Positions 4,101 through 55,563 of a DNA stretch of 64,000 nt are shown here, in pieces. Within the stretch, counting starts at the first letter, position 1; every line of letters starts with the position of its first letter. The DNA is from a virus. The notes below the pieces were generated by a model that searched no databases, had not been told where the DNA came from, and was given only the letters and a program-made list of their open reading frames with translations. The stretch spans positions 1 through 64,000 of IMG/VR virus record IMGVR_UViG_3300008113_000053; one strand, 5' to 3'. The translations under genes were made by a program, and so were the position numbers.

Positions 4101-4102
4101 GC

Positions 4103-7187: not shown

Positions 7188-8246
7188 ATGGCTATTGATT
7201 TTAATGGTGCATTGACTCTTGCGGATCAGGCAATCCTTTCCAATGATCCACTCGTAAAAGAGATTACTAAGAGTCTTCACAAGACATGGAATGCAATCAA
7301 GGACATTCCATTCACAACATCCCCATCGCTACGTCAAGTTGGACAGCGTTACGTTAACAGTGGTATCCCAACGCCTAACTGGACGGGTATTAACTCCGAA
7401 CCAGTCGCAGTCAAGGGTAAGCCAAAGTCGTATGAAGAGCAGATGTACTTACTCCGTAATAAAATTACGGTGGACCACGTTCTTCTTGATCAGCCAAATA
7501 ACATTATTGATCCTGTTGAAGCACAGGTTCAGATGTATTTGGAAGGTTTTGCGTATGACTTTAACGATAAATTTATCAACAACGACCCAACGTCTAACGT
7601 TGCTGGTAATAGCGTTGACGCATTCCCCGGTCTTGCGTATCGTTTAAATAACCCAAACCAGTATGACATTCCAACTGAAATGGTTATTGATACAACAGCT
7701 GACATCTCGCTTGGTAACCTTCTCGTCAATAGCGGGACAGCAACATCTACGCAGGGCATTGGCGCTGCAAACCGAATGATCGCTGATATTCAGCGTTTAT
7801 TAGACAACATGAATACGCCAGACGGTGATGGTGTTGTCTTCTATATGTCTGAGCTTACTAAGCGTCAGGTTGAAATGGCCATTCGTGTAATGGGTATTGG
7901 AGCAGGTTTTGATATTACTCAAGACAGCTTTGATCGACCTGTTGAGAAGTATAAGAATGCAACCATTCGTGTTGTTGGTCGTAAGGCTGACGGTTCCACG
8001 CCAGTCATTTCCAACTCGCTTACAATTTCCACTGTCTCCGGTTCTAACGCTAATACTTCACAGATTTATGCTGTTCGTTATGGATCCGGTTACGTGACTG
8101 GTTGGCAGTCTGGACCATTTAAGCCACAGTACTTAGGTTTATCTAAGGAAAACGGAATCATGCACAACATCCTCTTTGATTGGGGCTGTGGTCTGTGGAT
8201 TCCTCACGTTCGTGCTATTGGCCGTATCAACGTTAAGGTTCAGTAA
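7188..8246 (+). CDS. Major capsid protein
   Basis: The protein has 352 aa with a good AGGA ribosome binding site. Its length fits HK97-fold coat proteins. A helical N-terminus is followed by alternating strand-rich segments, and the C-terminal third contains a strand-rich G-S-G-Y-V-T-G-W region. It directly follows the scaffold and precedes a decoration-like protein. Codons in this gene are noticeably more C-ending than in its neighbours (for example AAC, TTC, ATC), which fits very high expression. The capsid assignment rests on order, size and composition. Confidence 0.9.
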   Translation: MAIDFNGALTLADQAILSNDPLVKEITKSLHKTWNAIKDIPFTTSPSLRQVGQRYVNSGIPTPNWTGINSEPVAVKGKPKSYEEQMYLLRNKITVDHVLLDQPNNIIDPVEAQVQMYLEGFAYDFNDKFINNDPTSNVAGNSVDAFPGLAYRLNNPNQYDIPTEMVIDTTADISLGNLLVNSGTATSTQGIGAANRMIADIQRLLDNMNTPDGDGVVFYMSELTKRQVEMAIRVMGIGAGFDITQDSFDRPVEKYKNATIRVVGRKADGSTPVISNSLTISTVSGSNANTSQIYAVRYGSGYVTGWQSGPFKPQYLGLSKENGIMHNILFDWGCGLWIPHVRAIGRINVKVQ

Positions 8247-21253: not shown

Positions 21254-22075
21254 ATGATTGATCCATTTGTCGGTGGAATATTAACACAGGCGTTAAATCC
21301 GTGGATTAAAAAGATGACTGACCCACAGGCCAGTCAAATGATGAATTATCAAAAACGGGCTATGGCTGCCAAGCAGAGCTATATTCCGTATTACAACCAG
21401 ATGATGAATACTGGTAAAGCACAACAAAATACCTATCTACCACAAGCTAATAAGATGGCATCGATGGGTATTGAAAGTGCAGTTAAACCACTATCAGAAA
21501 CCGATTTATTCAAAGGTACTGCTGCAGCAAACTCCGTATTACAACGTCAAGGCGATCAGGTTAATTCAAATATTGCAACAGGATCTGCTGCCCGTGGTTT
21601 ATATGGTCCAACTGGATACGGCTTAGGTGTTGGCGTAAACCCTAATGCTGCAACAGAATCTGCCATTGCTAATAACTTGGCTCAGTTTTCCAGTAACTGG
21701 GAAATGGGGCGTGGAGATCGGTTAAATGCTGCTGCTGACAGAGCAATGGGCTTAGCTAGGGCTGGAACAGATATGGCTGACCGTGGTGCAGCAGGAGCCG
21801 TAGGTTTATGGGGTCAGTTTGGTCAAGATGCACAGAATATTGGCGCACAAGAACTTGAGGCTCGTAAGCTTGCTGACGAACGTGCAAGCGGAATGATGGG
21901 TATGTTGACTGGTTATTGGAACAACATGCAACAACAACAGCAAGCTGCTGCTAATCTACGGGCACAAAAGGCACAAACAGATAGGATTCTGTCTATGATG
22001 TATAAGCCTGCAACACCGGGTGGTCCGGGGCGAACAGTAATGCCCGGTGACCCAGATTACACTGGAGAGGGTTAG
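21254..22075 (+). CDS. Probable ejection (internal virion) protein 1
   Basis: The protein has 273 aa with a GGAG ribosome binding site. It is rich in Ala, Gln, Met, Gly and Asn. An N-terminal amphipathic region is followed by helices with a Gln run (around residue 220). It is the first of three consecutive large helical proteins after the nozzle gene, the same order as T7 gp14-gp15-gp16. By analogy it would be packaged inside the capsid and ejected to build the DNA channel in the cell envelope. Similarity to gp14 at sequence level is not claimed. Confidence 0.55.
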   Translation: MIDPFVGGILTQALNPWIKKMTDPQASQMMNYQKRAMAAKQSYIPYYNQMMNTGKAQQNTYLPQANKMASMGIESAVKPLSETDLFKGTAAANSVLQRQGDQVNSNIATGSAARGLYGPTGYGLGVGVNPNAATESAIANNLAQFSSNWEMGRGDRLNAAADRAMGLARAGTDMADRGAAGAVGLWGQFGQDAQNIGAQELEARKLADERASGMMGMLTGYWNNMQQQQQAAANLRAQKAQTDRILSMMYKPATPGGPGRTVMPGDPDYTGEG

Positions 22076-22080
22076 TCACT

Positions 22081-23964
22081 ATGGCTTTTAGCTCAGCTGG
22101 ATTTATGGGTGGTTTAGCCCAACTTATTCAAGGTAGACAACAAAATGCGCTTGCTGATCAACAAGCAAAAGAAAAGCTTGAAGAACGTCGATTGCAACTT
22201 GGGATGCAAGCTGATCAGATTCGCAAGCAAAAAATTGATGAAGAACGTGCACGACTAACATTTGAAGAGCAACAAAAAGACTGGACGCAAAAGGGTAAAT
22301 TGCGGCCTTTTGAAATTGATACAGCAAAAACAAATCGAGATTTAGGTAAAGCAAATCTTTCTGGCATATTTGTCAATAATGACATTGCTGCCATGAATAG
22401 GGATACAGTACGAAGGCAACAGCAGGGACGCGACCAACTATTTGACTTGTCAGTAGCTACACCTCGGCATCAAGAAATGAAGGATTTGACTGCCGGGTTG
22501 CTGTCGCTTGACAGTACTATTAACAGTCAAATGACTATTGCTAATGACGTGACGAAGCCAATGGCTGAACGCGAGGCAGCTCAAGCTGCAATACGAAACG
22601 CTCATAATAGTAAATTTGCGTTGTTTAATAATGCAAAGAGTAAAGTTGGTTCAGTTCCTAATTTAACTTACGCTGATATTGCTACTGCTGCTGGAATTAG
22701 GCAACCTGATCCAACTAAGCCAGTTGACTGGAACACTTACAATAACTGGGAATCTCACTTTCCAGCATTCACACCTGTTCCGTTGCGTAGAGTGATTGCC
22801 GCATCACCTGAAGGGAAACAATCTCTTGTAGATCTTGATAAAGCAATTTTAAATTCGTTTGACATGACAAAACACGTTACGCGTCCTACTAAATTTTTTG
22901 ATATTCAAAAAATTAAAGGGCCTGACGGAAAGGACATGTTTCAATTAAATCCAACAACACCGCAATTTAATTTTGATAAAACTAAAATGTCATCTGAATA
23001 TTTTTCCTCACCGGCATTTTCAAGCTGGATAAAGGCTGCAGCTGCTACAAATAGGGCTAAAGAATCAGAGATATTGCAACAATTACTTGGCATTACACCT
23101 ACAGAAACACAATACGACGCAAGTGGAAAAGTTATAAAGGTTGGAGATGTTGATAAGCAAGGCAACTTGATAATGACTCCGGCATTTGCACAAAGGATTG
23201 CAGCTAATTACAACACGCGTGTGCCAACTCCAGAAAACTTATCTACAGTTATCAACAACGTGCAGAGTCAGTTTACTGATTCACAACGTAATGCGATTAC
23301 ATTCTGGAATGCACAGATGACATCTGGTGACACTCGCAAGACAGCAGATGCTGCAAGGTTAACCGCTAATTTATCCGCTCAAAGTGAAGTATTTAAAAAT
23401 GCTAACGATGGATACATGAAAAATGCAAATACTGCTGATGCCGAATTAGCACAAATTGGACGAACATTAGGTGTATTAACGGGTGCTTTGGTTGCTCCTG
23501 CTTCTGCTATCTTTGGAGAAGAAATTAAGAAAAATGCTTCTGCGCCACAAAAAGAATTGATACAAAAATATCGAGAGTTATATCGTAAGAAGCAATTAGC
23601 TACAGCATATTGGACTGATGCCGGTAGTCGATATGGTGAATCTTTAGTAAGAGGTGAAGCTAATGTCGGTGCTTACGCACAAGCAATTGGTAAAGCATCT
23701 AATATTTACAATGAAGGATTCAGACCGTTAACTAAAGAAGAAAAAGAGATGTTTAAACGTCTTGGAATGGCTATTCCGGGCACAGAGCAAACACCTCCAA
23801 AACCTCAAGCAGGAGGAGGTGGAGGAGCTACTGCCGGAGGTGGTGCAGTAAAGCCAAACGGAGGACTAGGAAGTAATCAAGCTGGTGCAGGATTAAATGT
23901 ACCAAAAGACACACCACTCGGTACTCTTAGAGTCAACGGTAGAATAGATAACCGTCAGCCATAA
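22081..23964 (+). CDS. Probable ejection (internal virion) protein 2
   Basis: The protein has 627 aa. Residues 15-85 form a long, highly charged coiled coil (Lys, Glu, Arg, Gln). The middle is helical, and the C-terminus is a Gly-rich flexible tract (G-G-G-G-G-A-T-A-G-G-G) and ends D-N-R-Q-P. It sits between the small ejection candidate and the giant protein, the position of T7 gp15. Assignment is by position, size and composition. Confidence 0.55.
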   Translation: MAFSSAGFMGGLAQLIQGRQQNALADQQAKEKLEERRLQLGMQADQIRKQKIDEERARLTFEEQQKDWTQKGKLRPFEIDTAKTNRDLGKANLSGIFVNNDIAAMNRDTVRRQQQGRDQLFDLSVATPRHQEMKDLTAGLLSLDSTINSQMTIANDVTKPMAEREAAQAAIRNAHNSKFALFNNAKSKVGSVPNLTYADIATAAGIRQPDPTKPVDWNTYNNWESHFPAFTPVPLRRVIAASPEGKQSLVDLDKAILNSFDMTKHVTRPTKFFDIQKIKGPDGKDMFQLNPTTPQFNFDKTKMSSEYFSSPAFSSWIKAAAATNRAKESEILQQLLGITPTETQYDASGKVIKVGDVDKQGNLIMTPAFAQRIAANYNTRVPTPENLSTVINNVQSQFTDSQRNAITFWNAQMTSGDTRKTADAARLTANLSAQSEVFKNANDGYMKNANTADAELAQIGRTLGVLTGALVAPASAIFGEEIKKNASAPQKELIQKYRELYRKKQLATAYWTDAGSRYGESLVRGEANVGAYAQAIGKASNIYNEGFRPLTKEEKEMFKRLGMAIPGTEQTPPKPQAGGGGGATAGGGAVKPNGGLGSNQAGAGLNVPKDTPLGTLRVNGRIDNRQP

Positions 23965-23976
23965 CAAGGAAATAAT

Positions 23977-26900
23977 ATGCAGACACGACAGCAATTAGAA
24001 GCTAAGCGTAAAAAAGAAGAAGCTGAAGCTCTGGCGAGACAAAAAGCTTTAGCACCTCAATTGCAAGCAGCTAGATCAGGAATGCCTGAATCAAAGGCTC
24101 CTATTGCTGAACTTCAAAAAGCATCTGGTAAACCATCTGCTAGAGTGTCTGCTCCATTAATTGCGACTCCTGACGGCAAAGTACAACGTGGTACACCCGA
24201 AGAGTTTAAAAAGATACACATAAAAGACTGGGAAGAGAAGTTACGTTCAGGTGACCCTACAGTATTATCGTCTGCTAATGAATGGTTATTACAAGAAGCG
24301 CATAAAGAAAAAGCGATAGATGACAAAACGTACAACTCGCTTCAAGAACGTTTTCGGCAAATGCGCGTTGACTTAAATAAAACGTTCATTGGCGGAGTAG
24401 TAGACGGAAAGCAAGTTCCACTAGAGTGGCCTCGCACTGTATTTGACAAGACAACAAAACAATATGTACAGGAAAAGAGGCCTGTCTCTTTAGCTGATTT
24501 AATTGTTCGCAAAGGAAACAGTTGGGCGTTTATTCAACCAAAAACTACTGGTGAATTAGAAACCATCTTAAGGGCTAAATACGGAAAACGTGACGCTGTA
24601 TTAGGTAAGACTAAAGCTGAAGTTGAAGAGTATCAAAGACCAAACACTCCTGCTGAAACGGCTAATATGTGGCTGGGTAGTGGATTAGGTGGTGCAGTTG
24701 GTTTTCTTAAACCCATAACAGATCAATACGAACGTCTTGAAGATTGGGGTAGGAAGAAACTTGGAGAAGCTCCATACAAAAATCCAATTATCGCAGATGA
24801 CCCAACATTAACTGGACGCAGTTTTGCGAGTAGGTTTGAAGCAGCTCGTCAAGGTACGGGCGCTGGTGTCAAATCATTTTTTGCAACACCTGCTAACTGG
24901 GCACAAAACGCAGACATTGAAATGCGAGCGAAGTCTGCCGTCCGTGATCTTGGAATTACTGATCCGGTAAAAGCGCGTGAGGAACAAGCTCGTCAGGAAG
25001 AATACTTACGCCAAAGTATTAGGGACTTAGCGCCGGGTTCTAACCTATTGATGAGTGATTGGTTAGACAAGACGTGGAATAGATTTCCTGAGAGTGACGT
25101 TTATAACTATGGAATGATTGCTGGTGAAACAATACCAGTTGCAGTCACAGGATTACGTGCAAGCATTGGTTTAATGAATGCTACTAGCACATTAGGTGCT
25201 AGGGCACTTGCACCAGTTGGTATGGCTAACACTGGTCGGACAATAGGCTTAGTTACATCTGTTGCTGCTCCGGTTGGAGTTAGAGCTTTTAGGGATCAGT
25301 TAAGTAAGCCTAGTGATGTTTTAAAGTCATTGCAGAAAACAGGTGATGTTACACCTGCTGAGAAAATTGTACGTGGTATTGAAGCTGCGTTTGATCCAGT
25401 TGGCACTGTATTTCAGGGTGGTATGTCTCCGGGTAAAGAAGAAGCATTGTCACAAAGTGACCCTAGTGGTGCTGTTCGTGGATTTGTTTCTACTGCAACT
25501 AACTTAGGTTTGATGGCTCCCGGTGCTCCTAGTTTGTGGAATGATGTGAAGTCACAAGCTAGAGATGCGGTTAAGTTATATAACCGATCTACAGCAATCA
25601 AAGACGCTGCTGGAATTGAATCTTCTGTATTTAATAGCGCTCAACGTTTTACTAACTCTTTTGCCCGTATTGGTAGAAATGAAATTGGTAAGCGTGTTGC
25701 AATGGATCTTGGTTTTGGTGCTACACAACCACTAGGTGTTCTTGGTGAAGCAGCATATGCACATTTCTCTGAGCGGAAACCGGGAGAAGAACGTCATTAT
25801 CCAACCGCTGTAGATTATGGCCTATCCGTGTTGCATGGACTTGTTTCCTCGCGTCCCGGTAAATTTGCTCATTCGTTGATTAATGTAAATCCATTAGGTG
25901 CAATGGAACCACAGACTGCTGCAATGGACGCAGCTGTCAATATAATTAACAGGCCAGATCGACGTGTTGAACTTTTGCACGACTGGCTTGGACAAACATA
26001 TGGACGCAGGTTTAACGACTACGATGTCAGATTACTGGCATCAGAAATGTCAAATGATAATCTTGGCAACATACAGCGCAGATTAGCGCACGTTGGCGGA
26101 GCACCAGACCCTGCATTTAAAAATCCAATTCATTACGTCCGTGAATTCATTAATAACCCAGATGGTTTTTCGGAAGCCACAAGGCAAAAGTACACAGATT
26201 TAATTGAAAACATGCGTGGCAATAAGGACAACAGGGACCATGAACCGGACAGTCCGTTAACTAAAGTCCGCATATTAGATGATCTCAACCCTGCAACCAA
26301 AGGTATACGCACACAAGAACTTACTGCACGATTCCTAAAAGATATTAACTTGCAAGCAGAAGCTGCTAAGTTGGCATCTAAGAATCAACCTAAGCCATCT
26401 GAGCCAGTGCAAAAGCAAGATTATTACGGCTTGCGCATGATGGATGGGCGAGTACTGGTTTTCAATAAAGACTTATCATCCGCTCGTATTATTGAATCAG
26501 GAAACGAAGCTGACATAACTATGCTTGCTCCAAATTCATCTAGGGAGCTTGCGTCTGTTGACCCGCGAGTTGATTCTTTAGTAAGCCTTGTTGAAGGTTC
26601 AGAGCATATTCAAAATATTGTCAGGACGTTAATTGAATCAACATTCATTAAAGACGGAAAAATACATAAGTTCTTTGGTTTAGATAAAAACGGCAATCCT
26701 ATATTTGCACTTGAAGACGGCACACACAAAACGATTAACAGGAATATTATTGGTGAATATGTAGGTGATTCAGAATTTACAAGTGCAGATGCAAAAGATG
26801 GTTTTATTCCAGCTTTAAAATATTTAGCTGAACAATCTGGCATGTCTGGAGAGGGTGAGGTTACGTCATTCCGTAAAAGTGGTGTCAACCCTCTGTATCC

Positions 26901-29900
26901 ACATCAGCATGAAGTTGCTGTGCCTGATTCTGAAAATGACACATATGGATTACGCCCAGTATTAGCAAACAACGATTGGGTTATGCATCAGTCTAACAAT
27001 GGGTCAATTGTATTTACATCTAATAACGGTATGGCGAAAGGTCGGCAATTACCTCCTATTGATGTTGCTACAGCATTAGATTTAAGTAATGAAGCAAGTG
27101 TAATTAATTACTTAAAGTCATTGAACCCAGAAAGTGCAAGTGCTGCTGTGCCTGTTGCTTCAGGTCAAGGTGGCGTTGCCGAGCAAGGCATCATACATAT
27201 TAATGACAACAAGACACTGCGTGATTTAATTGCAATTGCTAAAAGCAGTGAAAAGCTTGAGGATAAATTAGATGCCATCAAAGGCATCGTTAGCGAATAT
27301 GTAAAACATGCACCTGAATGGCAAGATGCAACTGGTGTTAAATCGGACGTACGCCAAGGAAGCATTATTGAGTCCGACGGAAAAACATATTTAGTCATTG
27401 ACTCCGATGGAAATATAGCTGTTGCTAGAGATATCACAGATATTGAAGGTGCAAATCATTACATCCTGTCCGGTGATGCAATTAATACTAACGCCGTAAG
27501 GCATGACGTACTAGAGCGCATTTTTAATGATCACAACATTGGTGGCGTAGACCGATCGATGATTCGGCCTGTGTCATCTGGTACGACAGACCTTGAAAGA
27601 GCTATGGCTGAGGCTATGCTCACAATGTCTACTGGGGCTGACGTTTATTTATTTCATGAGGTTGTTGACGCAAGCCATGAAGATTTACCATCTGTCCTTT
27701 TAAAGATTGCAACGCAAGATCACGCAGACTATCTTGATTTATATAAATCACTCGTAGTGTCTTTGTCGGCTTGGATTGATAACAATCCTGAATTAGCTCA
27801 CATGAGTTATGTTGCTGCAGCAAAAGCATTCAATGAGTTGATACCAACAATTGATGTAACATCATCAACCAATAGCGGTAAGTTACAGCAAGCCTATCAC
27901 CTATTGCGTTTATCAAACTTTAATCCTGAAATTGAATCTGCTATTACAAATGCAGAAACAAGGCTTGGTTCTGCTCCTGAGCCTACTGGATCTGAGCCAA
28001 TTGATGTTACTGTGTTCTCTAGAACTGGAGCGCCACGCACGACAAGAACAACTGAAGCACAGGCGTTAATTGTCAATGCTGCATTAGGACTAAATCGTGC
28101 TTTGCTTGGCGGTGGCGACGTATCTCCAGAGCGTATGAACCGAGAGCTTACTAGGATATTTAAACTTTATCCATCACTAGAAGCAAATAAAGAAGCAGCG
28201 CAAGCAAAAATCTTAGAACTCGCTGGGTTACTTAGAAGTGTACACCCGCTTATTTACTCTAAGGTACTTGGCTCACCACGTATGTGGATGATTAATAAAT
28301 TCTCTGGATTACCAGCTGAAATTCAAGCGTTAGCTGCGGTCCTTCCTGAACGTGGGCCTGAAAACTTAGTAGGCCCTAACCCAATACTTGCAACTGAAGC
28401 TGGATACACAGCAGCGTTGGAGAAAGTCCGTAGTACTTACAATATAGAAAAGACACTTGGTACGCTAGATGATTTTAAACAAGAACTGTATCAAAGTGGG
28501 TTAGGATTTTTCTGGGAGGTTGTACACAATCCAGAATATCTAGCAAATCAATCATCTGAGCGATCTGCAATAGCAAATGACATTAGACGAGCACGTGTGT
28601 TTAATGACACCAAGGCCGACTCTTTGACACAGATGTTAGTGAACAGCGCTACGGCTGTATATGTGGACACAATTAAAAAGTTGGCTCAAAACCAATCTCT
28701 TCCAGCTGATCAACAAACGTTGGTTAATCTGGGTGATGCAGTTATTGCGCAAAAATATGTTGACATGGAAGCTGCTCAACAACAACTTACAGGCACCGAG
28801 CTGATGTTGTCTGGGTCACCTACGAGTCAAGAGCAGTCTGCTTTAAGTTTGGCAGAAGCTCAAGCTACATTAGCAGACGTGGCAGAAACTTTAGGTAGAG
28901 TTGGAAGTGACATTGCATTAGTTGATGCATCACAGCAATTTGGCGTAGGCACTATTGATAATGGCACAGGTCAAGAAATCGGAACAGGACTTACTTTAGC
29001 CAAAGAAAAAAGTATTGAAAAAGCGACGTTTGACGCTTATTCAAAGCTTACTGATAAAGAAAAAATCGACGTAATTTTATTTAACGGTGCTTGGCCAACA
29101 ATAAGTGGCTTAATGAGTGAGGCCATCCGATCTGGCGATGCGGGTGTGCATGACTCATTGCTATCTGTGATTGCAGAACTTGCCAGTGGTGAAGTCGAAT
29201 ATCCCATGTTGATGTTTATGGGTGATCCAAGTGCATATAATCAATTTAAAAACGACGTTAATGTTGTTAGGCAATATGTCAAAAATGCAAGCGCAATTGT
29301 TGGTAGTGGTGCAGATATACATGGGACTGTCCGTAATAGAGCAATTGCAACATTACGCAGAATATTAGCTACAGACATACCTATTGATGGAAGTAACGTA
29401 GATAATGTCAAAGCTTGGTTGAATTTTCAAAATCTATTTTTAAAAGCATTTACAAGTAGGGTTTTAGAGGCGCACGTTACTGGCGCATCAAAGAATTTGA
29501 AAGTAGCTCAAAACACCATTATTGAATTAGAACGACAAAACAGAAATTTACTTGATGTAGTTCGCATGGCATCACTTGCTCAAGACGCAAATATGGGCCT
29601 TGAAGAATACATGAAGTTGTCTAAAGATGTTACTGGTGCCGTAATTAACTTTATGGGATTTGAATTCTCTGCTGGAGAGAGTATGTTAATTTCTGATGCA
29701 GTTCAAGCATTAATTAGCACTTTTACACCAGCAGAATTAGCGGCTCCCGGAGCAGCACGAGACTTAGTTGAACGAGCTGCGGAATTAGAACAAGCAATAG
29801 TTACAGCTGGTGGTGATATGCGTTCGTTGGTTGACTCACAAGGTCAAGCAAATGTTACAGTGGTTGAGTATGACAGAGGAGCACTAGGTCGAGACATATC

Positions 29901-32900
29901 TATTGCTGATCCAAATGCACCTCAAGCAACAAAAGTTAATTTACTGAGGGCGAATAATAGAGCAGGACTTGAAAAACTATTCCTGTCCATGATGTGGGGC
30001 GAAGCAGCTAACGACAATCCAGTAGATGTGACAATTTTAGATGCTATAGCTGGAAAGTTTGAAGAGTCACAACAACTTAAACAATTAACTGAAACGCGAA
30101 ATCTGCAGACTAAATTCCGCAAAGTGTTTTTACCGTCACAAGACAGTACTTTTGAGGTAGCTGTCATGCCGGGTAGCGGAAGAGTGCATAGGACAAACCG
30201 ATCTTCCGAAGACCTTGTTAACGGACAAGTGTTTTTTAATAGTGTGTACGAGCAGGGTATAGCTGCAACCAAAAGCGATCCTGTCAAACAACGTAAGTTT
30301 ATTGATGCAATGAATGCGTTATATAACGACGGTAAAAGTGGTGACACCTCTAAGATATCAATGAAGATGTTACAAGAAGTGTTATCTGCCATTGGGTTGC
30401 GCTCGTCATCCTTCATGGCAAAAACAAATCTTGGCAACACGTTTGTTATTGGTATGGATTCACGAAGTCAATACTTTGCCCCATACATGATCACAACAAT
30501 GTTGACAGCTATGGATGTTCAAGGAAAGGTGCGTGTTACTGCTGACCCAACAACTCCAAAGCCTCCCGTGTATGACGTAAGGGATCAAATACAGGGGGAT
30601 GAAGTTAATTACGATCGTTCTGTAGCAAATAACTTGTCTAAATTCTCTATCTTCTCTACGCCAGAAGATATGTCGAAAATGACAGTAGAGCAACTTGAAG
30701 ACATGGTTAAGTATTACAATCTTATTGTAAATAAAAATTCCTTGTCTTTAAATGCTACTGATTTAGCTAAAGCAAAACAGATTAGAGATGCGTATCAATC
30801 TGTGTTGTCTGAATATGGTGCCAATAAAAAGGCACGTGATGTATCTGCTGTAACAACTGTAGTTACAAATAAAGCTAATGCTATTGAGGTCGCTCGGCAA
30901 TTAGCAAAACTGTATGACATTTATTCATTAAGTCAAGCCGAACGTGACATGGAAGCAGATATAGATTTAAACACTGCGTCTGCTCGTTCTGAGTACTTGG
31001 CATTAATGGCCCTAGCACGTATAGACTCATCGATCATTGAACAATTTGCAATGAACAATGCATCTATTGCGTCTATGACGAAAGGCAAAATAATTGGCCC
31101 AGACAATACTGAGACTGTATTACTGTCACCAGAACAGTTATTACGTTTACGCAGTTTGCGTTTAGCTCAGCTACAACAAAATTTCTACAATCAGGACAAT
31201 CAGTTGTTTGCGACTATGCAACAACACTTGATGGACACTTCAAACTTAAGCCATCGTGATAACCCTGAACAAGGTGAATACATTTATGGCATGACTCGCG
31301 AACTTGGTCGTACAGACGATGCTGTAGCTAGACTTTTATACATTGCATCAAAGAAGGGTTTTGACCGAACAGCACACACTATTGCCCATGAAGTGTCTCA
31401 CGTATTGTTCTTGTCTTTACCTGACTACATGCAGGTTGAATATTTAAAAGCTGTAATGCCTGAGAAAGGTACTGAGGGAGCTGATGAGAAAATTCAACCA
31501 GCAATGGCGGATGCGTACAAATTAATTAAAAGTGCTTCTGACGCATACGCGTTGCATATTAATCAAGGTGGCAGCAAGCATACATTTAAATTAAAAAACA
31601 CATCCGGTTGGGATGGCTGGGGAACAGTATTACATGAAATGACTGCAACGTCATTTGTCAACTTCCTAACCCATGATGGTGTTGTTTATTCCGGTGGAGC
31701 AGAAAAAAGCCGAGCTGACAATGTCACTGCTGTATTACATAACTTAGGTAATGTGTTGCGTCCAATAGCTGAGCGGTTAGGAACTGCAAGCGCTGGAAAC
31801 ATTGTCATGCAAGACGGCAATGCTATGAATGCATATTTCTTAGATCCAGCTGCTGTTAAATATCAATCAACGGTTGAAAACGGTAATGAACGAACATTTT
31901 ATCCGTTGCAACATTACAGTTGGTTGAACTTTACTGTTCATCACCAACGTGATGCGTCTGGTGCATTGCGTAGTGTTACACCGTTTGACATGATGGGATT
32001 GGTTGATGCTAACAATCCATTTATGAAAAAGATGTTTGGTGGTAATTACGACAGAGTCAAGTCATTGCTAAATAAGGGTGGAGTTGTATTAGATAGCTCA
32101 CTTCAGGTTGGTAGATTTATTAACAACTCATCCATTGCAACTGAACTTGCATCTGGCCAACGTGCTACCGGGCGTGTTGTCGGCATGGTCATGTCCACAG
32201 ATTATGTGACACAGCAAGAAGCACAGCAAGCTGGTGCCAAATATGCTTTTACCATGAAGAATGCAAAAGGCAAAGATGTCATTTGGATTGATGTAAGTAA
32301 TGACAATAACAAAATGACTTGGTATAAGCTTCAGTTTGAAGGAAAAGGCAAGTTTAGAAAAGGCCAGCAGCGTTCTGGTAAAAAAGATTACATGTACATT
32401 GTCGAGACTACTGGCGACATTAACATGTATGAAAAAGACGGTGATCGCCACAAGTTAATGACTGATGGCAAAATGAAACAACAAAAGGTTCGTATCCTTG
32501 TTGGGCATGACGCATTTTCAGTGGAAGACAAATTAGCCAAACCTTATATTGTGTCTACTGGAAAAATTAATACACCGCAGTTTAATAACGTTGTTTACTC
32601 AATGCTTGCTCGTGTTGATAAGAGCCTGACAGAAATGTCGGGACAGTTAAACTATGATCATCAGCAAGGTTTGATTCAGTCCTTAGCAAAAGAATATGCT
32701 GGTGTAGAAGAAGGGTCTTTTACTAATGTGTATGGTGCAAACTTATACAATTTAGTACAGGATCAAAGTTTAAATATTGGACAGCGTATAGCTAACGCAG
32801 ATAAGACTAATTTGTCAGCACAATCAATTGCTGCCGTCGATCCGTGGGTTCGTTACAAATACAACAACACTCAGTTCAGGTTAAGGTTTACAGAGTTATT

Positions 32901-35900
32901 ACCAGAATTAGGAACCGATGCATTAGATTTACTAAGTTCGTTTTTATACGGTCAGCGTCAAAATATGATGACTCCAGATGGCCGTTTAAGCACATGGCAC
33001 AGAGCTGTGCCAGTGAAATATAAGCTTGGATTCTCGCAGAGCACTGCAAACTCAGATAAGTTGTTGACTCAGTGGATGGTCAATAAATTTACTAGTCTGA
33101 ATGAAATCCAGAATTTTATAACATCTATTAAAGATGCTGTTGTTGCAGCACGTAATTCCGGTGAAACTACTATTACAGTTCCAGATCCAATACTACAAAT
33201 GGAAGGCACATCTATAGATGTGTCATCTATTATTAATGGAATGTTCAGTCCAGACATGACTGACAATGAAATTAACGCAACGGCTCAAATTATTGAGAAA
33301 TTTGGGACAGACTATTTAATTAAATTGTGGGCCAGCACTGGAAGTAATGGACTAGCTCAACTGTTTGAGGCGTTTAATCATTCAAAGGTAAACTTACAGC
33401 CTCTTATCTATCCTTCTACTATGCCTACTACATTTGAAAAAGACGGCATTGTGTATGATGTTAAATCTGCTATTGATAAAGTCTTTAATCTTGCGTTAGA
33501 CCCAACTACTGTTCGTAATTACGTTGGTCAAAATTTACGTGGAGGCCCAAACACGCAAGCTGCTGAAATCACATCTACTAGAAATTTAGATATAGCAAAT
33601 CAGGCTGTTCTCTATCACATTATGACTAAGGTATTTAGAGACCAACAGAGTCAAGTCAAGTTTATGAAAGACCTGTTGCGTGTAGGTCATACAGACAATA
33701 ACACTACTCAGCAACTGGATCACATTAATGCATTGAATATGTTTAATGTAGTGAGTCATATCTTTGCAACAGATTCGCGTTTACGCACAGCTACTCAACG
33801 CAACTGGAATGACTCTAAGATCATTGACATTAATGGCGATGATGTCATATTTGAAATACCTGATCGTGATATTGCGATTGCAGCTCCTCAGACTGAACAA
33901 GGTTCTGTTGTTAGAGTCAATCTTAAGACTGGTGTTTCTGAATATGTTGTTAAAACTAAAAAGTTAATTAACGGCGAAATTGTTGATAGGTGGGAGCCAG
34001 CGCAGAGCGTTGACAAAATGTATGGCTACAATGCCACATCTCGTCCTAATGATCCAATGCCTAGCACTGCACAGCCATGGACAACTAAGGCTAATGGACA
34101 GAGGTATACATCCGAACAGATGTTTGGTGGTGACCGAAAGGCAGCTGAGGTACTTAAATCTATTCTTGGCCAAAATGAAATGAGCAGACTGGTAACTGAT
34201 GAAAATTACAGCACAGTAATTTTGTTACCAAACGTCGATGCATTTAAAACTGGTTCTACGGAACAGGTTGCCAACAAGGGCATTAGTGCTTGGTCAGTCA
34301 GTTTTAATAAGGATACTGGTTGGAGTTTTAAAGAGCAAAACAGCTGGTGGAATGAGGCTGGTAATCCACGGTCACAGAATTTAAACGCTTTACTTAAAGC
34401 GGCAATGCCTTCTACATTAAGTGATCAAACACGGGAAGGTATTACTAAACTGCGTGTATTAAATGAGGAGTATCACATAGCTAAACTATTGGTCGCTCGT
34501 GAGGCCGTAAAGAAAAGTGATTTATACAAAAAGCTTGGCGGTGGAGCACGTGAGCAACTATTCCCAGTAGCAGACCGAACTATTATGGGTGATATCTCTG
34601 GTGATACTTGGTATAGCAAATCACCAACTGGTATGGAGGCACCTGAGCCTGAATCAACATTGGATTACGTGTCAGATATTGAGTTAGTTAAGGGCGGTGA
34701 GTCTGACTATCCAACTTTAAATGCATTCTGGAAAGCAAAAATTACCGATGAAGTTATTGGTCACGCTGAAGCAAATGCACCAAATGAATTAGTGATTTAC
34801 AAAGATCCTAATTTACAAAATGGACTTGGTAAGACACTGCAAGGTAAGCGAGTTACCTTAAATGTTGGGCCAGAAATGTGGCCAATTGTTGATGAGATTA
34901 TGAAGAGTAGGAAACTACCTCTCGTCAATGCTAATGAAGCAATATCAATGGATATGGATGAAGGCTTGACCTTATTCTCTAAGACTCCATTTGAGCATGC
35001 AGTTGGAGGCGTAAAAGCAATTGGTCAATTTGGTCAATATATTTTAGGGTTTGACTTATCAACAATTGGAATTCAAGGTGCCAGACGCGCAATGAATGAT
35101 CCACTTGGTGCAGTATGGGCGCTAACTTACTCACTGCCTTCCATGGTCATGTTGAGCCGTGATAACCTTCCATTTTTTGCTGGATATGCTGCTGACTTGA
35201 TATTGCGTGGATCTAGATATAACGCTAAGTGGACTCTATTAGGTAATGCTTATTATGAGATGGCAATGGAAGCAATGTTAAAGCATGTCAACCTTGCAAA
35301 TAAAAGTAATTACACAATGGCCGAGCTTGCTGAGCTTGGATGGAAAAGTGATTATTATGACTGGAAAACAAAACACGCATTAAACAGAATGAAGGATCCT
35401 AGTAAATATAAAGCCTTAATGGATACACCGTTTGAAGTTGATGATGAATTTATCAGTGGTGCAGCTAAACATTTTGTTGGCATTAGTGGGCGATGGGATC
35501 AAACTCGTTTGTTGTGGCGTGATTTATTCTCGCTTAAGCAAGCTGTTGACAACATGGAATTGGCTGAAGGTCGCAAGCGTTTTAATGTGTTTGAAAAACA
35601 GCAGCAAAATTACCGTAAAAATCACGAAATACGACGAGATAAGCGAGCTTTGCTTTTAGATTTAGCATTAGACATGGGTTTAACTAAGTTCTCTAGATCG
35701 AGGATGCAAGCCCCATTGCTTAGCGCGTTTGGGCAGGTGTGGAATTCTCTTGAAACTGCACCGGGGTACAACAGGTCATTTATTCACGGTATGAACCTTG
35801 ATGTATTCCATGGTGCAAAAACTCGTGTTAACGGCGCATATATGAGGCTTATGCGAAATGGCCCTAAGTTTCTAAGAGGAAATTTATTTGACACAGATTT

Positions 35901-36984
35901 CTCTGATTACTACACAACTACTAGAACTCCATTGTCTAGCTGGGCAAAAGAATCTAGATTGCGAGCACAGGTTGCCACGTATCTAACAATTGGCGCATTA
36001 ATGATTGCTAACTCTAAAAGACTATGGGATCAGGAACACGAAAAAGAAGCTTTTGACTGGAGAGAATTTACTGTTTATGGCTTAAAGAATTTTGGATATA
36101 TTGCTATGTCACCAACAGAGACTATAGGTATAGCACCATTTACAAAACTTGGTGGATTATTACGACCTGTTGCAACATTATTAGAGCCATCGGAAAGTAC
36201 TGTAGGTTCTAAGGCAAATGCAATTGGAAAATCTATACTTGATTCATATGTAATAAACAGGTGGAACAGTTTATCTCAAGCAACGTATGCTGCATTGACT
36301 GGAACATCTTATGGTAATCGCCCTTCATTCTCACGTAATGAGGGAATGGCAATAGCTGCAGCTAATCAACTGCGACCTCCGCTAATGTTTAGGACATTGC
36401 AGGACATTGCTCCAGTTCAGAGTAATTTCTTAAGCAATTTTTCAAACTATACATTTGTACAGGCATGGTATGAAGATTTAGCTAAGTATGCTGCTGCTCA
36501 GTCAATACCAGAAGAAGAGATTGCTAATTTAGGACAATTAGATACAGCACTGGCTAAAGCTCCAGTTATTAGCAATGAAGAGGCGATGCGAATATTCTGG
36601 AAGGGATACATGATTCGCATGCTAGGCTTTGGATATTACGTTGACCCAGAAAAATTCCAGCGCAAAATGGATTTCAAACTTGACCTTGGATTGGCAAGTG
36701 CTACCGTTAAGCGCTTGTCTTATCTCGAACGTGGATGGTGGAAATATGCAACTATTAAAGATGCGTTAGCAGACAGTCGCGGTTTAACAAACGTCATTGA
36801 AGGGTTTGAAGAAAAAGAATTTAGACGAATGACTCTGCTAGGCTTTGTGCCAGAATCCGCTAAAAAGTATGGAACGAAAATACCATTGAGAGATCGTGAA
36901 TTACCACTTGGAGCTAACGCTGAAAAAGCACGTGAGCAACAGAAAATGCAAGATTCTATTAATGGTGAGGGCGAACAGGAGTAA
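23977..36984 (+). CDS. Giant virion-associated polyvalent protein (4335 aa) with zinc metallopeptidase motif
   Basis: This one gene occupies 13 kb. An AAGGA ribosome binding site precedes the ATG. It opens with a charged coiled coil (residues 1-35). An embedded gluzincin-type motif I-A-H-E-V-S-H-V lies at residues 2471-2475 (HEVSH), with a possible third ligand at Glu2554 in L-H-E-M-T-A-T-S-F. Near residue 3692 the F-D-L-S...Q-G segment, followed by hydrophobic stretches to about 3750, resembles the membrane-proximal part of large polyvalent phage proteins. Another hydrophobic segment lies near 3998. Position after two helical ejection candidates and before the endolysin matches T7 gp16 or N4 gp50. 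No RNA polymerase motifs were found. It is likely ejected with DNA, and the peptidase may act on capsid, wall or host proteins. Confidence 0.75.
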   Translation: MQTRQQLEAKRKKEEAEALARQKALAPQLQAARSGMPESKAPIAELQKASGKPSARVSAPLIATPDGKVQRGTPEEFKKIHIKDWEEKLRSGDPTVLSSANEWLLQEAHKEKAIDDKTYNSLQERFRQMRVDLNKTFIGGVVDGKQVPLEWPRTVFDKTTKQYVQEKRPVSLADLIVRKGNSWAFIQPKTTGELETILRAKYGKRDAVLGKTKAEVEEYQRPNTPAETANMWLGSGLGGAVGFLKPITDQYERLEDWGRKKLGEAPYKNPIIADDPTLTGRSFASRFEAARQGTGAGVKSFFATPANWAQNADIEMRAKSAVRDLGITDPVKAREEQARQEEYLRQSIRDLAPGSNLLMSDWLDKTWNRFPESDVYNYGMIAGETIPVAVTGLRASIGLMNATSTLGARALAPVGMANTGRTIGLVTSVAAPVGVRAFRDQLSKPSDVLKSLQKTGDVTPAEKIVRGIEAAFDPVGTVFQGGMSPGKEEALSQSDPSGAVRGFVSTATNLGLMAPGAPSLWNDVKSQARDAVKLYNRSTAIKDAAGIESSVFNSAQRFTNSFARIGRNEIGKRVAMDLGFGATQPLGVLGEAAYAHFSERKPGEERHYPTAVDYGLSVLHGLVSSRPGKFAHSLINVNPLGAMEPQTAAMDAAVNIINRPDRRVELLHDWLGQTYGRRFNDYDVRLLASEMSNDNLGNIQRRLAHVGGAPDPAFKNPIHYVREFINNPDGFSEATRQKYTDLIENMRGNKDNRDHEPDSPLTKVRILDDLNPATKGIRTQELTARFLKDINLQAEAAKLASKNQPKPSEPVQKQDYYGLRMMDGRVLVFNKDLSSARIIESGNEADITMLAPNSSRELASVDPRVDSLVSLVEGSEHIQNIVRTLIESTFIKDGKIHKFFGLDKNGNPIFALEDGTHKTINRNIIGEYVGDSEFTSADAKDGFIPALKYLAEQSGMSGEGEVTSFRKSGVNPLYPHQHEVAVPDSENDTYGLRPVLANNDWVMHQSNNGSIVFTSNNGMAKGRQLPPIDVATALDLSNEASVINYLKSLNPESASAAVPVASGQGGVAEQGIIHINDNKTLRDLIAIAKSSEKLEDKLDAIKGIVSEYVKHAPEWQDATGVKSDVRQGSIIESDGKTYLVIDSDGNIAVARDITDIEGANHYILSGDAINTNAVRHDVLERIFNDHNIGGVDRSMIRPVSSGTTDLERAMAEAMLTMSTGADVYLFHEVVDASHEDLPSVLLKIATQDHADYLDLYKSLVVSLSAWIDNNPELAHMSYVAAAKAFNELIPTIDVTSSTNSGKLQQAYHLLRLSNFNPEIESAITNAETRLGSAPEPTGSEPIDVTVFSRTGAPRTTRTTEAQALIVNAALGLNRALLGGGDVSPERMNRELTRIFKLYPSLEANKEAAQAKILELAGLLRSVHPLIYSKVLGSPRMWMINKFSGLPAEIQALAAVLPERGPENLVGPNPILATEAGYTAALEKVRSTYNIEKTLGTLDDFKQELYQSGLGFFWEVVHNPEYLANQSSERSAIANDIRRARVFNDTKADSLTQMLVNSATAVYVDTIKKLAQNQSLPADQQTLVNLGDAVIAQKYVDMEAAQQQLTGTELMLSGSPTSQEQSALSLAEAQATLADVAETLGRVGSDIALVDASQQFGVGTIDNGTGQEIGTGLTLAKEKSIEKATFDAYSKLTDKEKIDVILFNGAWPTISGLMSEAIRSGDAGVHDSLLSVIAELASGEVEYPMLMFMGDPSAYNQFKNDVNVVRQYVKNASAIVGSGADIHGTVRNRAIATLRRILATDIPIDGSNVDNVKAWLNFQNLFLKAFTSRVLEAHVTGASKNLKVAQNTIIELERQNRNLLDVVRMASLAQDANMGLEEYMKLSKDVTGAVINFMGFEFSAGESMLISDAVQALISTFTPAELAAPGAARDLVERAAELEQAIVTAGGDMRSLVDSQGQANVTVVEYDRGALGRDISIADPNAPQATKVNLLRANNRAGLEKLFLSMMWGEAANDNPVDVTILDAIAGKFEESQQLKQLTETRNLQTKFRKVFLPSQDSTFEVAVMPGSGRVHRTNRSSEDLVNGQVFFNSVYEQGIAATKSDPVKQRKFIDAMNALYNDGKSGDTSKISMKMLQEVLSAIGLRSSSFMAKTNLGNTFVIGMDSRSQYFAPYMITTMLTAMDVQGKVRVTADPTTPKPPVYDVRDQIQGDEVNYDRSVANNLSKFSIFSTPEDMSKMTVEQLEDMVKYYNLIVNKNSLSLNATDLAKAKQIRDAYQSVLSEYGANKKARDVSAVTTVVTNKANAIEVARQLAKLYDIYSLSQAERDMEADIDLNTASARSEYLALMALARIDSSIIEQFAMNNASIASMTKGKIIGPDNTETVLLSPEQLLRLRSLRLAQLQQNFYNQDNQLFATMQQHLMDTSNLSHRDNPEQGEYIYGMTRELGRTDDAVARLLYIASKKGFDRTAHTIAHEVSHVLFLSLPDYMQVEYLKAVMPEKGTEGADEKIQPAMADAYKLIKSASDAYALHINQGGSKHTFKLKNTSGWDGWGTVLHEMTATSFVNFLTHDGVVYSGGAEKSRADNVTAVLHNLGNVLRPIAERLGTASAGNIVMQDGNAMNAYFLDPAAVKYQSTVENGNERTFYPLQHYSWLNFTVHHQRDASGALRSVTPFDMMGLVDANNPFMKKMFGGNYDRVKSLLNKGGVVLDSSLQVGRFINNSSIATELASGQRATGRVVGMVMSTDYVTQQEAQQAGAKYAFTMKNAKGKDVIWIDVSNDNNKMTWYKLQFEGKGKFRKGQQRSGKKDYMYIVETTGDINMYEKDGDRHKLMTDGKMKQQKVRILVGHDAFSVEDKLAKPYIVSTGKINTPQFNNVVYSMLARVDKSLTEMSGQLNYDHQQGLIQSLAKEYAGVEEGSFTNVYGANLYNLVQDQSLNIGQRIANADKTNLSAQSIAAVDPWVRYKYNNTQFRLRFTELLPELGTDALDLLSSFLYGQRQNMMTPDGRLSTWHRAVPVKYKLGFSQSTANSDKLLTQWMVNKFTSLNEIQNFITSIKDAVVAARNSGETTITVPDPILQMEGTSIDVSSIINGMFSPDMTDNEINATAQIIEKFGTDYLIKLWASTGSNGLAQLFEAFNHSKVNLQPLIYPSTMPTTFEKDGIVYDVKSAIDKVFNLALDPTTVRNYVGQNLRGGPNTQAAEITSTRNLDIANQAVLYHIMTKVFRDQQSQVKFMKDLLRVGHTDNNTTQQLDHINALNMFNVVSHIFATDSRLRTATQRNWNDSKIIDINGDDVIFEIPDRDIAIAAPQTEQGSVVRVNLKTGVSEYVVKTKKLINGEIVDRWEPAQSVDKMYGYNATSRPNDPMPSTAQPWTTKANGQRYTSEQMFGGDRKAAEVLKSILGQNEMSRLVTDENYSTVILLPNVDAFKTGSTEQVANKGISAWSVSFNKDTGWSFKEQNSWWNEAGNPRSQNLNALLKAAMPSTLSDQTREGITKLRVLNEEYHIAKLLVAREAVKKSDLYKKLGGGAREQLFPVADRTIMGDISGDTWYSKSPTGMEAPEPESTLDYVSDIELVKGGESDYPTLNAFWKAKITDEVIGHAEANAPNELVIYKDPNLQNGLGKTLQGKRVTLNVGPEMWPIVDEIMKSRKLPLVNANEAISMDMDEGLTLFSKTPFEHAVGGVKAIGQFGQYILGFDLSTIGIQGARRAMNDPLGAVWALTYSLPSMVMLSRDNLPFFAGYAADLILRGSRYNAKWTLLGNAYYEMAMEAMLKHVNLANKSNYTMAELAELGWKSDYYDWKTKHALNRMKDPSKYKALMDTPFEVDDEFISGAAKHFVGISGRWDQTRLLWRDLFSLKQAVDNMELAEGRKRFNVFEKQQQNYRKNHEIRRDKRALLLDLALDMGLTKFSRSRMQAPLLSAFGQVWNSLETAPGYNRSFIHGMNLDVFHGAKTRVNGAYMRLMRNGPKFLRGNLFDTDFSDYYTTTRTPLSSWAKESRLRAQVATYLTIGALMIANSKRLWDQEHEKEAFDWREFTVYGLKNFGYIAMSPTETIGIAPFTKLGGLLRPVATLLEPSESTVGSKANAIGKSILDSYVINRWNSLSQATYAALTGTSYGNRPSFSRNEGMAIAAANQLRPPLMFRTLQDIAPVQSNFLSNFSNYTFVQAWYEDLAKYAAAQSIPEEEIANLGQLDTALAKAPVISNEEAMRIFWKGYMIRMLGFGYYVDPEKFQRKMDFKLDLGLASATVKRLSYLERGWWKYATIKDALADSRGLTNVIEGFEEKEFRRMTLLGFVPESAKKYGTKIPLRDRELPLGANAEKAREQQKMQDSINGEGEQE

Positions 36985-36988
36985 TTAA

Positions 36989-37765
36989 ATGAGTAACTCT
37001 GCTTTATTTATTGAGATTGCTAACAAATATATTGGTATTACTGAACAGCCAGTTGGTAGCAATAGAGGACCACTGATTGACAGGTGGAATAGTAATGCGC
37101 ATGCACCATTAGGAAGTTTCTGGTGTGCGTCTTTTGTCAGCGCAATTGCAATGGAATGGGAGGATAAAAGTGGTTATGATTGGCCGTTGTGTATTAGTGC
37201 TGACTGTGATGTGTGGCTTGCTAATGCTAAAAAACACCACTGTATTTCAACAAAGGGGCAGCCGGGTGACATTGTTCTTCTGGTTTCTGGTAATGATGCT
37301 TATCATATCGGTATTGTCACAGGTTACTCTGAAACAGGAAGTTTAATTTCAGTTGAAGGAAACAGTAACAATGACGGAAGCCGAAATGGATACATGGTTG
37401 CAAAACGCAATAATGTGTATGCAGGAAGAAACAAGGATAATGTCTTCTTTATAAGTCCGTGGAATTTGATGACGGAACAGGATGATTGGAAGATTGTTTA
37501 TGGCGACAAGCACATCGTTGCGTTACTTGAGAACAACAAAACTTACGCGCCTTTGCGTGATTTTGTCAGGCTTGTCACTGGGTCTGATGCTGAGTTATCT
37601 TGGGAAGATGGGCCAGTGTACAAAGGTAAGCCACTGGCCCTTCAATGTATTTTACGAGATAGCAAATCGTACGCATCTATACGAGATGCTTCTCGCCGTT
37701 TTGGTCTTGACTGTATCGTCAATAGTGACCAAAAAAAGGTTTACTTACAAGTCAAAAAAGTCTGA
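36989..37765 (+). CDS. Endolysin: CHAP peptidase/amidase with stalk-like C-terminal domain
   Basis: The protein has 258 aa. The CHAP domain (about 1-150) shows Cys46 in F-W-C-A-S-F-V, His106 in Y-H-I-G-I-V and the third position in V-E-G-N-S-N (Glu123/Asn125), the standard order. The C-terminal domain (about 170-258) has A-P-L-R-D-F-V-R-L-V-T-G and W-E-D-G motifs of the copper amine oxidase N-terminal-like (stalk) domain, often a wall-binding module, with a second half-copy A-S-I-R-D-A-S-R-R-F-G. It would cleave peptidoglycan peptides at lysis. No signal peptide is visible, so a holin is needed. Its 3' end overlaps the convergent helicase gene by 21 nt. Confidence 0.85.
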   Translation: MSNSALFIEIANKYIGITEQPVGSNRGPLIDRWNSNAHAPLGSFWCASFVSAIAMEWEDKSGYDWPLCISADCDVWLANAKKHHCISTKGQPGDIVLLVSGNDAYHIGIVTGYSETGSLISVEGNSNNDGSRNGYMVAKRNNVYAGRNKDNVFFISPWNLMTEQDDWKIVYGDKHIVALLENNKTYAPLRDFVRLVTGSDAELSWEDGPVYKGKPLALQCILRDSKSYASIRDASRRFGLDCIVNSDQKKVYLQVKKV

Positions 37766-39130
37766 CCCGTAATCGCTGAACTTGGCATAATTGGGATTAA
37801 ACTCTAGTAGTGAAACCCCAGTTTTGCCATTTCTGTTTTTAGCAGTAATAACTTCAGCTTTATCTACGCCTTGATCGCCTTCTTCACCGTCCTGTTTGCG
37901 TTCGTAGTATCCAGCCCTGTAAATAAACTGAATTACATCTGCATCAGATTCAATGTCTCCAGATTCACGCAGATCAGACATCATGGGTCTCTTATCTTGA
38001 CGCTGCTCTACAGCACGTGACAGGCTAGATAAAGCAACAACAGGACATGCAAACTCACGTGCTATATCTTTTAGGCCACGACTAATCACGCCAATGTCAC
38101 GAGTTCTATTCTCTGATTTGTAAGAGCTTGGCATAGCAATCATCTGTAAGTAATCAACAACCACCAAGCCAACATGAAAAGACTTTTGTGTGTCTCTAAT
38201 GGCATCTCGGATTCCTCCAAGGGTGACAGTTTTATCTGCGACAATACTAACATGAAGTGTCTTAGCCTCCTGAGCTACAAGATGTAGCTTGTCTTTCTGA
38301 AAGTTATTCAGCTTCTTGGTCTGTATAACTTGACTATCCACTTCACTGTAGATTGACAACATACGTGCAGTGACCATGTCTTTTGACATCTCTGCACTTA
38401 CAATAAGTACTCCGGTCTTTTGATCTAAGCTTCTCATAAACTTAGCTGCATTCCATGCATATTGCAATCCAAGACTAGACTTACCCATTGAAGGTCTGCC
38501 ACCTAGTATTATCAGTTCTCCATTTCGCCATCCCCCTGTAATAGAATCTATTTCTGTGTAACCAGAGCCGATTGAGAAGTCTAATTTATCTTCATCTCTA
38601 AGTATAGCCTCGTTGGTTGTATCCCATATTAATTTAGATAAATCATCTGTTGAGTTTCCGGAATTGATGAATGTAACAGAGTTATTTAAATCCTTTATGA
38701 TTACTTCTATGTCATCGTCACCAGTTGAAGCCCTCTTACTGGCATGCTCTGAAGCAAAGATGATTTCTCTGCGCCTGTGATAGTCAGTTACAAGCTTGGC
38801 ATAACTCTCAAAGTTTTGAGTTGAAGGAAGTAGTTCAGCGCATTGCATAATATATGCAAGCCCACCACATGCCTCTAACGCATTTCGCTTAGTTAGTTCC
38901 TCATTCACAGTCACGATGTCAATGACTTGACCAGCTTTTTCAATTGCGTTATAGGATTCCCATATAAGGCTATGAGCTACTCTGTAGAACATTGACTTAT
39001 CAATAGCTGTTAATGATCTAAGTATCCTGTTACCTCCCAAAAGAACGGATGCTATAAGTGATTGCTCACTCATAACATCCGATGGGACCTCGATATTAAA
39101 TCCTAAACTTTTATTCGGCACGTTGCTCAT
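37745..39130 (-). CDS. dnaB: Replicative DnaB-family helicase
   Basis: The protein has 461 aa, a typical DnaB length. The N-terminal helical domain (1-120) contains E-Q-S-L-I-A-S-V-L-L. The RecA-like domain has Walker A G-R-P-S-M-G-K-S-S at 211-219, Walker B near V-V-V-D-Y-L-Q-M, and the DnaB-specific Q-R-Q-D-K-R-P-like and S-D-L-R-E-S-G-D-I-E segments with A-D-V-I-Q-F-I-Y-R-A. It should form the hexamer that unwinds the fork. It overlaps the upstream 39111 gene by 20 nt and is the last gene of the leftward operon. No phage DNA polymerase is seen nearby, so it may recruit host replicase. Confidence 0.93.
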   Translation of the reverse strand: MSNVPNKSLGFNIEVPSDVMSEQSLIASVLLGGNRILRSLTAIDKSMFYRVAHSLIWESYNAIEKAGQVIDIVTVNEELTKRNALEACGGLAYIMQCAELLPSTQNFESYAKLVTDYHRRREIIFASEHASKRASTGDDDIEVIIKDLNNSVTFINSGNSTDDLSKLIWDTTNEAILRDEDKLDFSIGSGYTEIDSITGGWRNGELIILGGRPSMGKSSLGLQYAWNAAKFMRSLDQKTGVLIVSAEMSKDMVTARMLSIYSEVDSQVIQTKKLNNFQKDKLHLVAQEAKTLHVSIVADKTVTLGGIRDAIRDTQKSFHVGLVVVDYLQMIAMPSSYKSENRTRDIGVISRGLKDIAREFACPVVALSSLSRAVEQRQDKRPMMSDLRESGDIESDADVIQFIYRAGYYERKQDGEEGDQGVDKAEVITAKNRNGKTGVSLLEFNPNYAKFSDYGSDFFDL

Positions 39131-55286: not shown

Positions 55287-55398
55287 CTACTCGCTACCTC
55301 TGCAAAGGCCATACCTGTGACCCGGCGGCAGTTTGGGGTCAGCTCTGTAATTCGCATCTCGCCCCAAGACGGTTGGAATCCGTCAGTAGTACAGACCT

Positions 55399-55470
55399 TC
55401 CTACTTAGCTCAGCGGAAGAGCGTTCGGCTGTTAACCGAATGGTCGCTGGTTCGATCCCAGCAGTAGGAG
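55399..55470 (+). tRNA. tRNA-Asn (anticodon GTT)
   Basis: Acceptor arms TCCTACT (55399-55405) and AGTAGGA (55463-55469) pair fully with discriminator G at 55470. The anticodon loop CTGTTAA has GTT at 55431-55433 between 5-bp arms TTCGG and CCGAA. The T arm is GCTGG-TTCGATC-CCAGC. CCA is not encoded. It would supplement Asn decoding. Confidence 0.95.
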
Positions 55471-55563
55471 TTCCCTCATGCATGTAAACGCACCGGGGAT
55501 GACGTTATGCCTTGTGGACCTTTCTCATCTTTCTGCCACAGGGCGTAGCGTTATGATAGAGTA

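Follow-up and report, generated by a model that had tools for sequence, protein, structure and literature searches.

The window analysed here is a stretch of 64,000 nucleotides (positions 1 to 64,000) belonging to a 66,226-base virus record, IMGVR_UViG_3300008113_000053, of an uncultivated short-tailed phage. The plus strand carries genes encoding the terminase large subunit TerL (2212–3957), a P22-type portal protein (4091–6295; Pfam P22_portal, E 2.3e-22; phrog_156), the major head protein (7188–8246; phrog_212, E 1e-27), a 273-aa Ala/Gln/Met-rich protein (21254–22075), a 627-aa protein (22081–23964), a giant protein of 4335 aa (23977–36984) that takes up a fifth of the phage genome, and, as the last gene of the structural block, an endolysin with a CHAP domain (36989–37765; Pfam CHAP, E 5.8e-6; PHROG endolysin). 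A DnaB-like replicative helicase gene on the minus strand (37745–39130) is convergent to the giant and shares 21 bases at its 3′ end with the 3′ end of the endolysin gene (37745–37765). Elsewhere in the window, a Mu Gam-like end-protection protein is encoded in the early region of this apparently non-Mu phage (40849–41427, minus strand; PHROG, E 8.5e-6), while genes for tRNA-Asn(gtt) (55398–55471, plus strand) and tRNA-Leu(taa) (56239–56322, plus strand) adjoin those encoding thymidylate synthase (56346–56990) and dUTPase (57449–57913). Outside the main structural block there is also a cysteine-free protein of 573 aa with a 3D domain near its N terminus (59679–61400, plus strand; Pfam PF06725, E 1.5e-9).

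The gene encoding the giant begins with an ATG preceded by a Shine-Dalgarno-like AAGGAAA and contains no internal stop, so that the ORF of 4335 codons described in the sequence-only reading of this window is intact and its position from 23977 to 36984 is correct. The same protein was found in three more IMG/VR contigs, L003 (4335 aa), L005 (4345 aa) and L004, two of which hold it complete. The giants of L003 and L005 share 79–82% identity with that of the window over the full length and keep both the start and a near-identical ORF length, and the HExxH motif discussed below is kept in L003, L004 and L005. Comparison of the close IMG/VR relatives gave a pN of about 0.12 against a pS of about 0.74 along the whole protein, and the giant is therefore a real, intact protein whose entire length is under purifying selection. 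As had been noted earlier, it exceeds both T7 gp16 (1318 aa) and the N4 virion RNA polymerase (vRNAP; 3500 aa).

Beyond these close relatives, the giant changes too quickly for direct searches to trace it. A tblastn search of 50,697 isolate phage records with the window giant and three divergent relatives gave no match, each divergent giant used as a scan query retrieved itself alone, and the similarity between some groups is close to or under what BLAST can detect. For this reason TerL and DnaB, the latter converging on the end of the giant operon, were used as anchors, yielding 31 and 51 relative loci, respectively. Six more large contigs carry giants of 4232, 3759, 4046, 3741, 3733 and 3299 aa in this position, each preceded by an ORF of 591–733 aa and followed, in most cases, by an endolysin-like ORF and then by the convergent DnaB gene. 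Giants thus span 3299–4345 aa in the same slot among related IMG/VR phages, and 38 C-terminal partial giants were recovered from the DnaB-anchored loci. When bacterial and archaeal genomes were searched for a host with the phage DnaB and TerL, none was found.

Direct family searches of the giant against Pfam, PHROGs and NCBIfam gave no match. It contains a predicted zincin metallopeptidase domain at residues 2376–2629 (31102–31863, plus strand), delimited in a 29-member alignment (A5). The window giant contains one HExxH, HEVSH at residues 2471–2475 (31387–31401), against 0.055 expected by composition, and the motif is present in all giants and pieces that extend as far as the site, in the variants HEVSH, HEIGH, HELFH, HEVNH, HEVTH, HEVVH, HEMFH, HEMGH, HEMTH, HEMSH, HEISH and HELHH. 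An unconstrained MAFFT alignment places the HExxH motifs in the same columns, the exception being G015, which has a shorter N-terminal part. The candidate third ligand proposed earlier, Glu2554 (31636–31638), lies within LHEMTATSF, 83 residues past His2471, and both it and the defining HExxH positions are invariant in 29/29 members. In fact, the only invariant columns of the alignment are Ala2397, Tyr2404, His2471, Glu2472, His2475 and Glu2554; His2471 and His2475 rank within the top three conserved positions of all 4335, and Glu2472 and Glu2554 within the top 80. The third-ligand Glu is situated 83–123 residues beyond the first His in 27/28 members, in most of them within an E-x-x-[AV] helix signature (HEMTATS, NELVVSS, GETTATS, HEIFASG). 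As judged from these alignments, no feature of the domain is under tighter constraint than HExxH with Glu2554, even between giants that have diverged very far, and neither is a product of chance. Together, His2471, Glu2472, His2475 and Glu2554 would supply all the zinc ligands and the catalytic base predicted for a zincin of the gluzincin type.

Regarding the fold, the assignment to the zinc peptidases made from the motif agrees with several weak matches. Pfam Peptidase_M78 was matched weakly by 11/29 domain sequences (best E 2e-5), followed in the same scan by still weaker matches to the DUF6782, M13, DUF2268 and M12B metallopeptidase models; the window giant itself gave no match to Peptidase_M78 (PF06114) at E up to 1 and thus does not reach its gathering threshold. 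The best match to PDB sequences was IrrE (E 0.005), across the strand and the HExxH helix. In both the M78/IrrE zincins and the giants, a strand leads into a T-[LI]-A-H-E-[IV]-S-H helix, but the likeness covers about 28 residues and the window giant is no Pfam M78 member. AlphaFold2 modelling of residues 2271–2751 gave a mean pLDDT of 64, with residues 2410–2460, where the sheet is expected, below 50, and a trimmed run gave 54. In the first model, HEVSH falls in a predicted helix at 2462–2479 and Glu2554 in a later one at 2549–2565, so the helix order agrees with that of a zincin, while the strands expected before the HExxH helix are not resolved. Compared with PDB structures, the models gave no significant fold match, the top one being a radical-SAM-associated HExxH domain (E 0.43). 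In BFVD, the first model matched a single entry significantly, over 443 aligned columns with E 3.4e-5 and probability 1.00; this entry comes from an uncultured phage and is annotated as a 'Large polyvalent protein associated domain-containing protein'. Because the models are poor, we infer the zincin fold, which is strongly suggested by the sequence evidence, rather than take it as shown, and we regard the middle domain of the giant as very probably a zincin.

The regions on either side of this domain differ in conservation. The N-terminal half (residues 1–2300; 23977–30876) is less conserved between phages and includes moderately hydrophobic stretches near residues 229–245 and 381–430 in the hydropathy profiles of the window, L003 and L005 giants. 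The C-terminal region (residues 2630–4335; 31864–36981) is conserved, has no recognised domain and contains the invariant residues Trp3545, Asp3693, Pro3721, Asp3849 and Gly4109. A T-W-x-S stretch at 34600–34660 (around residues 3545–3558), with the invariant Trp3545 and the conserved Ser3547 and Pro3558, is one of the best conserved places in the giant and matches no known domain; it could constitute a second functional site. Slightly upstream, at 34459–34527 (residues 3495–3517), a conserved helix-like segment reads x-E-x-H-[IV]-A-[KR]-x-L; in L067, L074 and L103 this segment, some 833 residues before the C terminus, has HEEYH and mimics the zinc motif. This second HExxH was rejected as a site, its His-Glu pair not being conserved: the window has NEEYH and many other giants read P-x-E-V-H at this place. 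L074 and L103, which carry HEEYH as an extra match, are the only exceptions to one HExxH per giant, and L067 holds HEEYH alone because the available piece is too short to reach the real site.

The giant is located late in the structural block, after the smaller putative ejection genes, and the earlier description of it as standing behind two proteins and ahead of the endolysin is correct, the two being the 273-aa and 627-aa ORFs. These three consecutive genes (21254–36984) lack any cysteine. Were cysteine as frequent in the giant as in the other structural genes, 34 would be expected; it has none (P about 2e-15). All nine members of each upstream family are likewise cysteine-free, while the giants carry 0–3. 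Cysteines are present in neighbouring tail proteins, in the portal, terminase, endolysin and helicase, and in the products of the 151-aa and 1387-aa genes that precede the cassette (10 in the latter). The same absence was found in ten Schitoviridae vRNAPs including N4 gp50, in N4 gp51 and gp52, in P22 gp7, gp20 and gp16, and in T7 gp15 and gp16; T7 gp14 has one cysteine, and some head proteins are also poor in it (0–1 in the N4 and P22 coat proteins). The phages RHph_N3_13 and CRP-235, whose TerL is distantly related, show a cysteine-free pattern at a comparable place. The 273-aa and 627-aa proteins, in which Ala, Gln, Asn and Gly abound, showed no profile similarity to N4 gp51/52, T7 gp14/15/16 or P22 gp7/20/16, and are classed as probable ejection proteins on position and composition. 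Since cysteine absence and the P22-type portal support it, the 273-, 627- and 4335-aa genes form a probable ejection cassette, in line with the earlier suggestion that the position of the giant fits an ejected protein, and that the giant is indeed ejected seems to us highly probable. We read the absence of cysteine as a composition rule for proteins that unfold, pass through a narrow channel and refold. A literature search for cysteine-free ejection proteins retrieved no such statement, though some may still exist. The absence of cysteine in N4 vRNAP itself has been remarked on before.

When compared to known systems, the closest resemblance is to N4 gp50, also a cysteine-free giant encoded after two smaller cysteine-free ejection genes and before convergent replication genes, with a HExxH and a downstream Glu (N-E-F-M-A-W) about two thirds along, followed by a large C-terminal region. 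N4 vRNAP is composed of N-terminal, polymerase, C1 (HExxH) and C2 parts (PMC12633501), and the third-ligand signature of N4-type vRNAPs, NEFMAWG, resembles the E-x-x-[AV] of the giants. In an hhalign comparison, the domain of the giants matched the C1 zincin at the third-ligand helix only (E 0.0009), which may reflect common zincin ancestry or convergence; there was no match to C2 and no profile similarity beyond that helix. The window giant differs in being 835 aa longer than N4 gp50 (3500 aa), in belonging to a phage with a P22-type portal, and in that the single-subunit RNA polymerase domain of N4 (residues 998–2103) was not detected in it. By analogy, it would resemble an N4-type ejected giant in its working. 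With the T7 gp14-gp15-gp16 set it shares an arrangement of three consecutive genes rising in size, the last with an enzyme domain, and gp15 and gp16 are cysteine-free like the cassette; gp16 is far shorter than the giant, and its enzyme is a lytic transglycosylase, not a zincin. P22 has the same portal type, and its gp7, gp20 and gp16 are encoded late in the structural block and are cysteine-free; in contrast, they are 229–609 aa long, carry no zincin and are without profile similarity to the 273-aa and 627-aa proteins. Another group to be considered is the polyvalent proteins of phages and plasmids, which include very large phage proteins with a zincin-like HExxH...E domain (PMC5512222), and to which the annotation of the best viral fold match also points. 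They differ from the giants in bearing two or more disparate recognised domains: a Pfam scan of 15 diverse giants at E 0.1 gave weak M78 and noise and no other polyvalent domain, and the Pfam LPD models gave noise only against the domain sequences of the giants. A metallopeptidase delivered into the host had been singled out as a notable effector; it is less unprecedented than that, as N4 vRNAP has a HExxH domain in its C-terminal part and no domain is more common in polyvalent proteins than the zincin metallopeptidase (Iyer et al. 2017, PMC5512222). Zincin-bearing giants, whether polyvalent or ejected, were already known, and the window giant is a divergent example of them.

The explanation that we favour as the more probable overall is that of an ejected giant with a probably catalytic zinc-metallopeptidase domain. 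Its phage would be a podovirus with a P22-type portal that ejects three proteins, of 273, 627 and 4335 aa, the giant being the largest. In the scheme inferred for it, from zincin fold and packaging through ejection to catalysis and substrate, the giant would be packaged in the head, exit in extended form with the DNA by way of the portal and tail, and refold in the host envelope or cytoplasm. There, His2471, His2475 and Glu2554 would bind zinc and Glu2472 would activate water. The invariance of the general base Glu2472 speaks for catalysis rather than metal binding alone, and the domain is likely to be active. Proteolysis during or after delivery would be the likeliest use and the least certain step. 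Given activity, self-processing, which would separate the two halves of the giant, the N-terminal one variable and the C-terminal one conserved, is a tentative first choice, cleavage of a host protein is somewhat more doubtful, and a wall or other substrate appears less likely again. Polyvalent proteins have been proposed both to self-process and to attack host proteins (Iyer et al., PMC5512222). Purified full-length N4 vRNAP showed no degradation (PMC12633501), so a trigger may be required for any self-cleavage; the nearest analogue is no obvious self-cleaver, and by analogy this would count against self-processing of the giant.

Among the alternatives, the one that survives best is a metallopeptidase acting as a host-directed effector, delivered with the DNA and cleaving a host defence or regulatory protein. 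Delivery of the giant is predicted, and the metallopeptidases of polyvalent proteins, proposed to act in this way, may target host proteins (PMC5512222); however, the site is kept in all members amid very different sequence, which a substrate in the giant itself or the virion fits at least equally, and we consider such a dedicated effector possible but rather unlikely. Less probable still is a HExxH domain that binds metal without being a peptidase, with a structural or encapsidation role or as a HExxH oxygenase-like enzyme. The motif also occurs in radical-SAM-associated HExxH enzymes (PMC12633501, a preprint on N4), a domain of this kind was the top, non-significant fold match mentioned above, and the metallopeptidase region of N4 was reported to be necessary for encapsidation (PMC5512222). 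The full H-E-H-E set with its helix-borne third Glu is, on the other hand, typical of gluzincin-like zincins, and the weak Pfam and PDB matches point to metallopeptidases, making this reading improbable.

A very divergent N4-type virion RNA polymerase, with its polymerase domain lying undetected at about residues 1100–2300, would account for the N4-like gene order, with two smaller cysteine-free genes, the giant and convergent genes, and for a zincin near two thirds of the length followed by a long C-terminal part. Nevertheless, the B-motif (RxxxKxxxxxxYG type) is absent from the nine full giants except for a single match in L005 that its near relatives do not share, although this simple search succeeds in 7/10 vRNAPs; hhalign of residues 900–1700 and 1500–2350 against the N4 polymerase gave E values of 0.67 and 0.91, and the portal type differs from that of N4. 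This identity was rejected on the B-motif and profile comparisons and appears very improbable. Equally hard to sustain is a structural protein of tail or tape-measure type that stays un-ejected. The place in the structural block ahead of the endolysin would allow it, but against it stand the P22-type portal, the lack of any recognised long-tail genes and a cysteine depletion that marks the three genes of the cassette, as opposed to the 1387-aa neighbour and the portal.

Returning to the ejected zincin-bearing giant, we tentatively propose that it may represent, in a phage lineage seen in metagenomes only, a polymerase-less protease machine of 3300–4350 residues, near cysteine-free, that would thread through the tail and whose zincin, its single conserved enzyme, would then cut the giant itself or a host protein at the start of infection. 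The role of the zincin-like domain in ejected giants is a question raised both by N4 and by the polyvalent proteins, and the phages described here offer a cleaner system in which to study the protease, as the zincin is the sole recognisable and most constrained enzyme and a polymerase was not detected. The cysteine-free signature may serve generally as a sequence marker for phage proteins that are ejected, and could help to assign this role where the sequences of a phage have no matches; if the proposed protease machine is real, strict cysteine avoidance would be such a general marker, readable from sequence alone.
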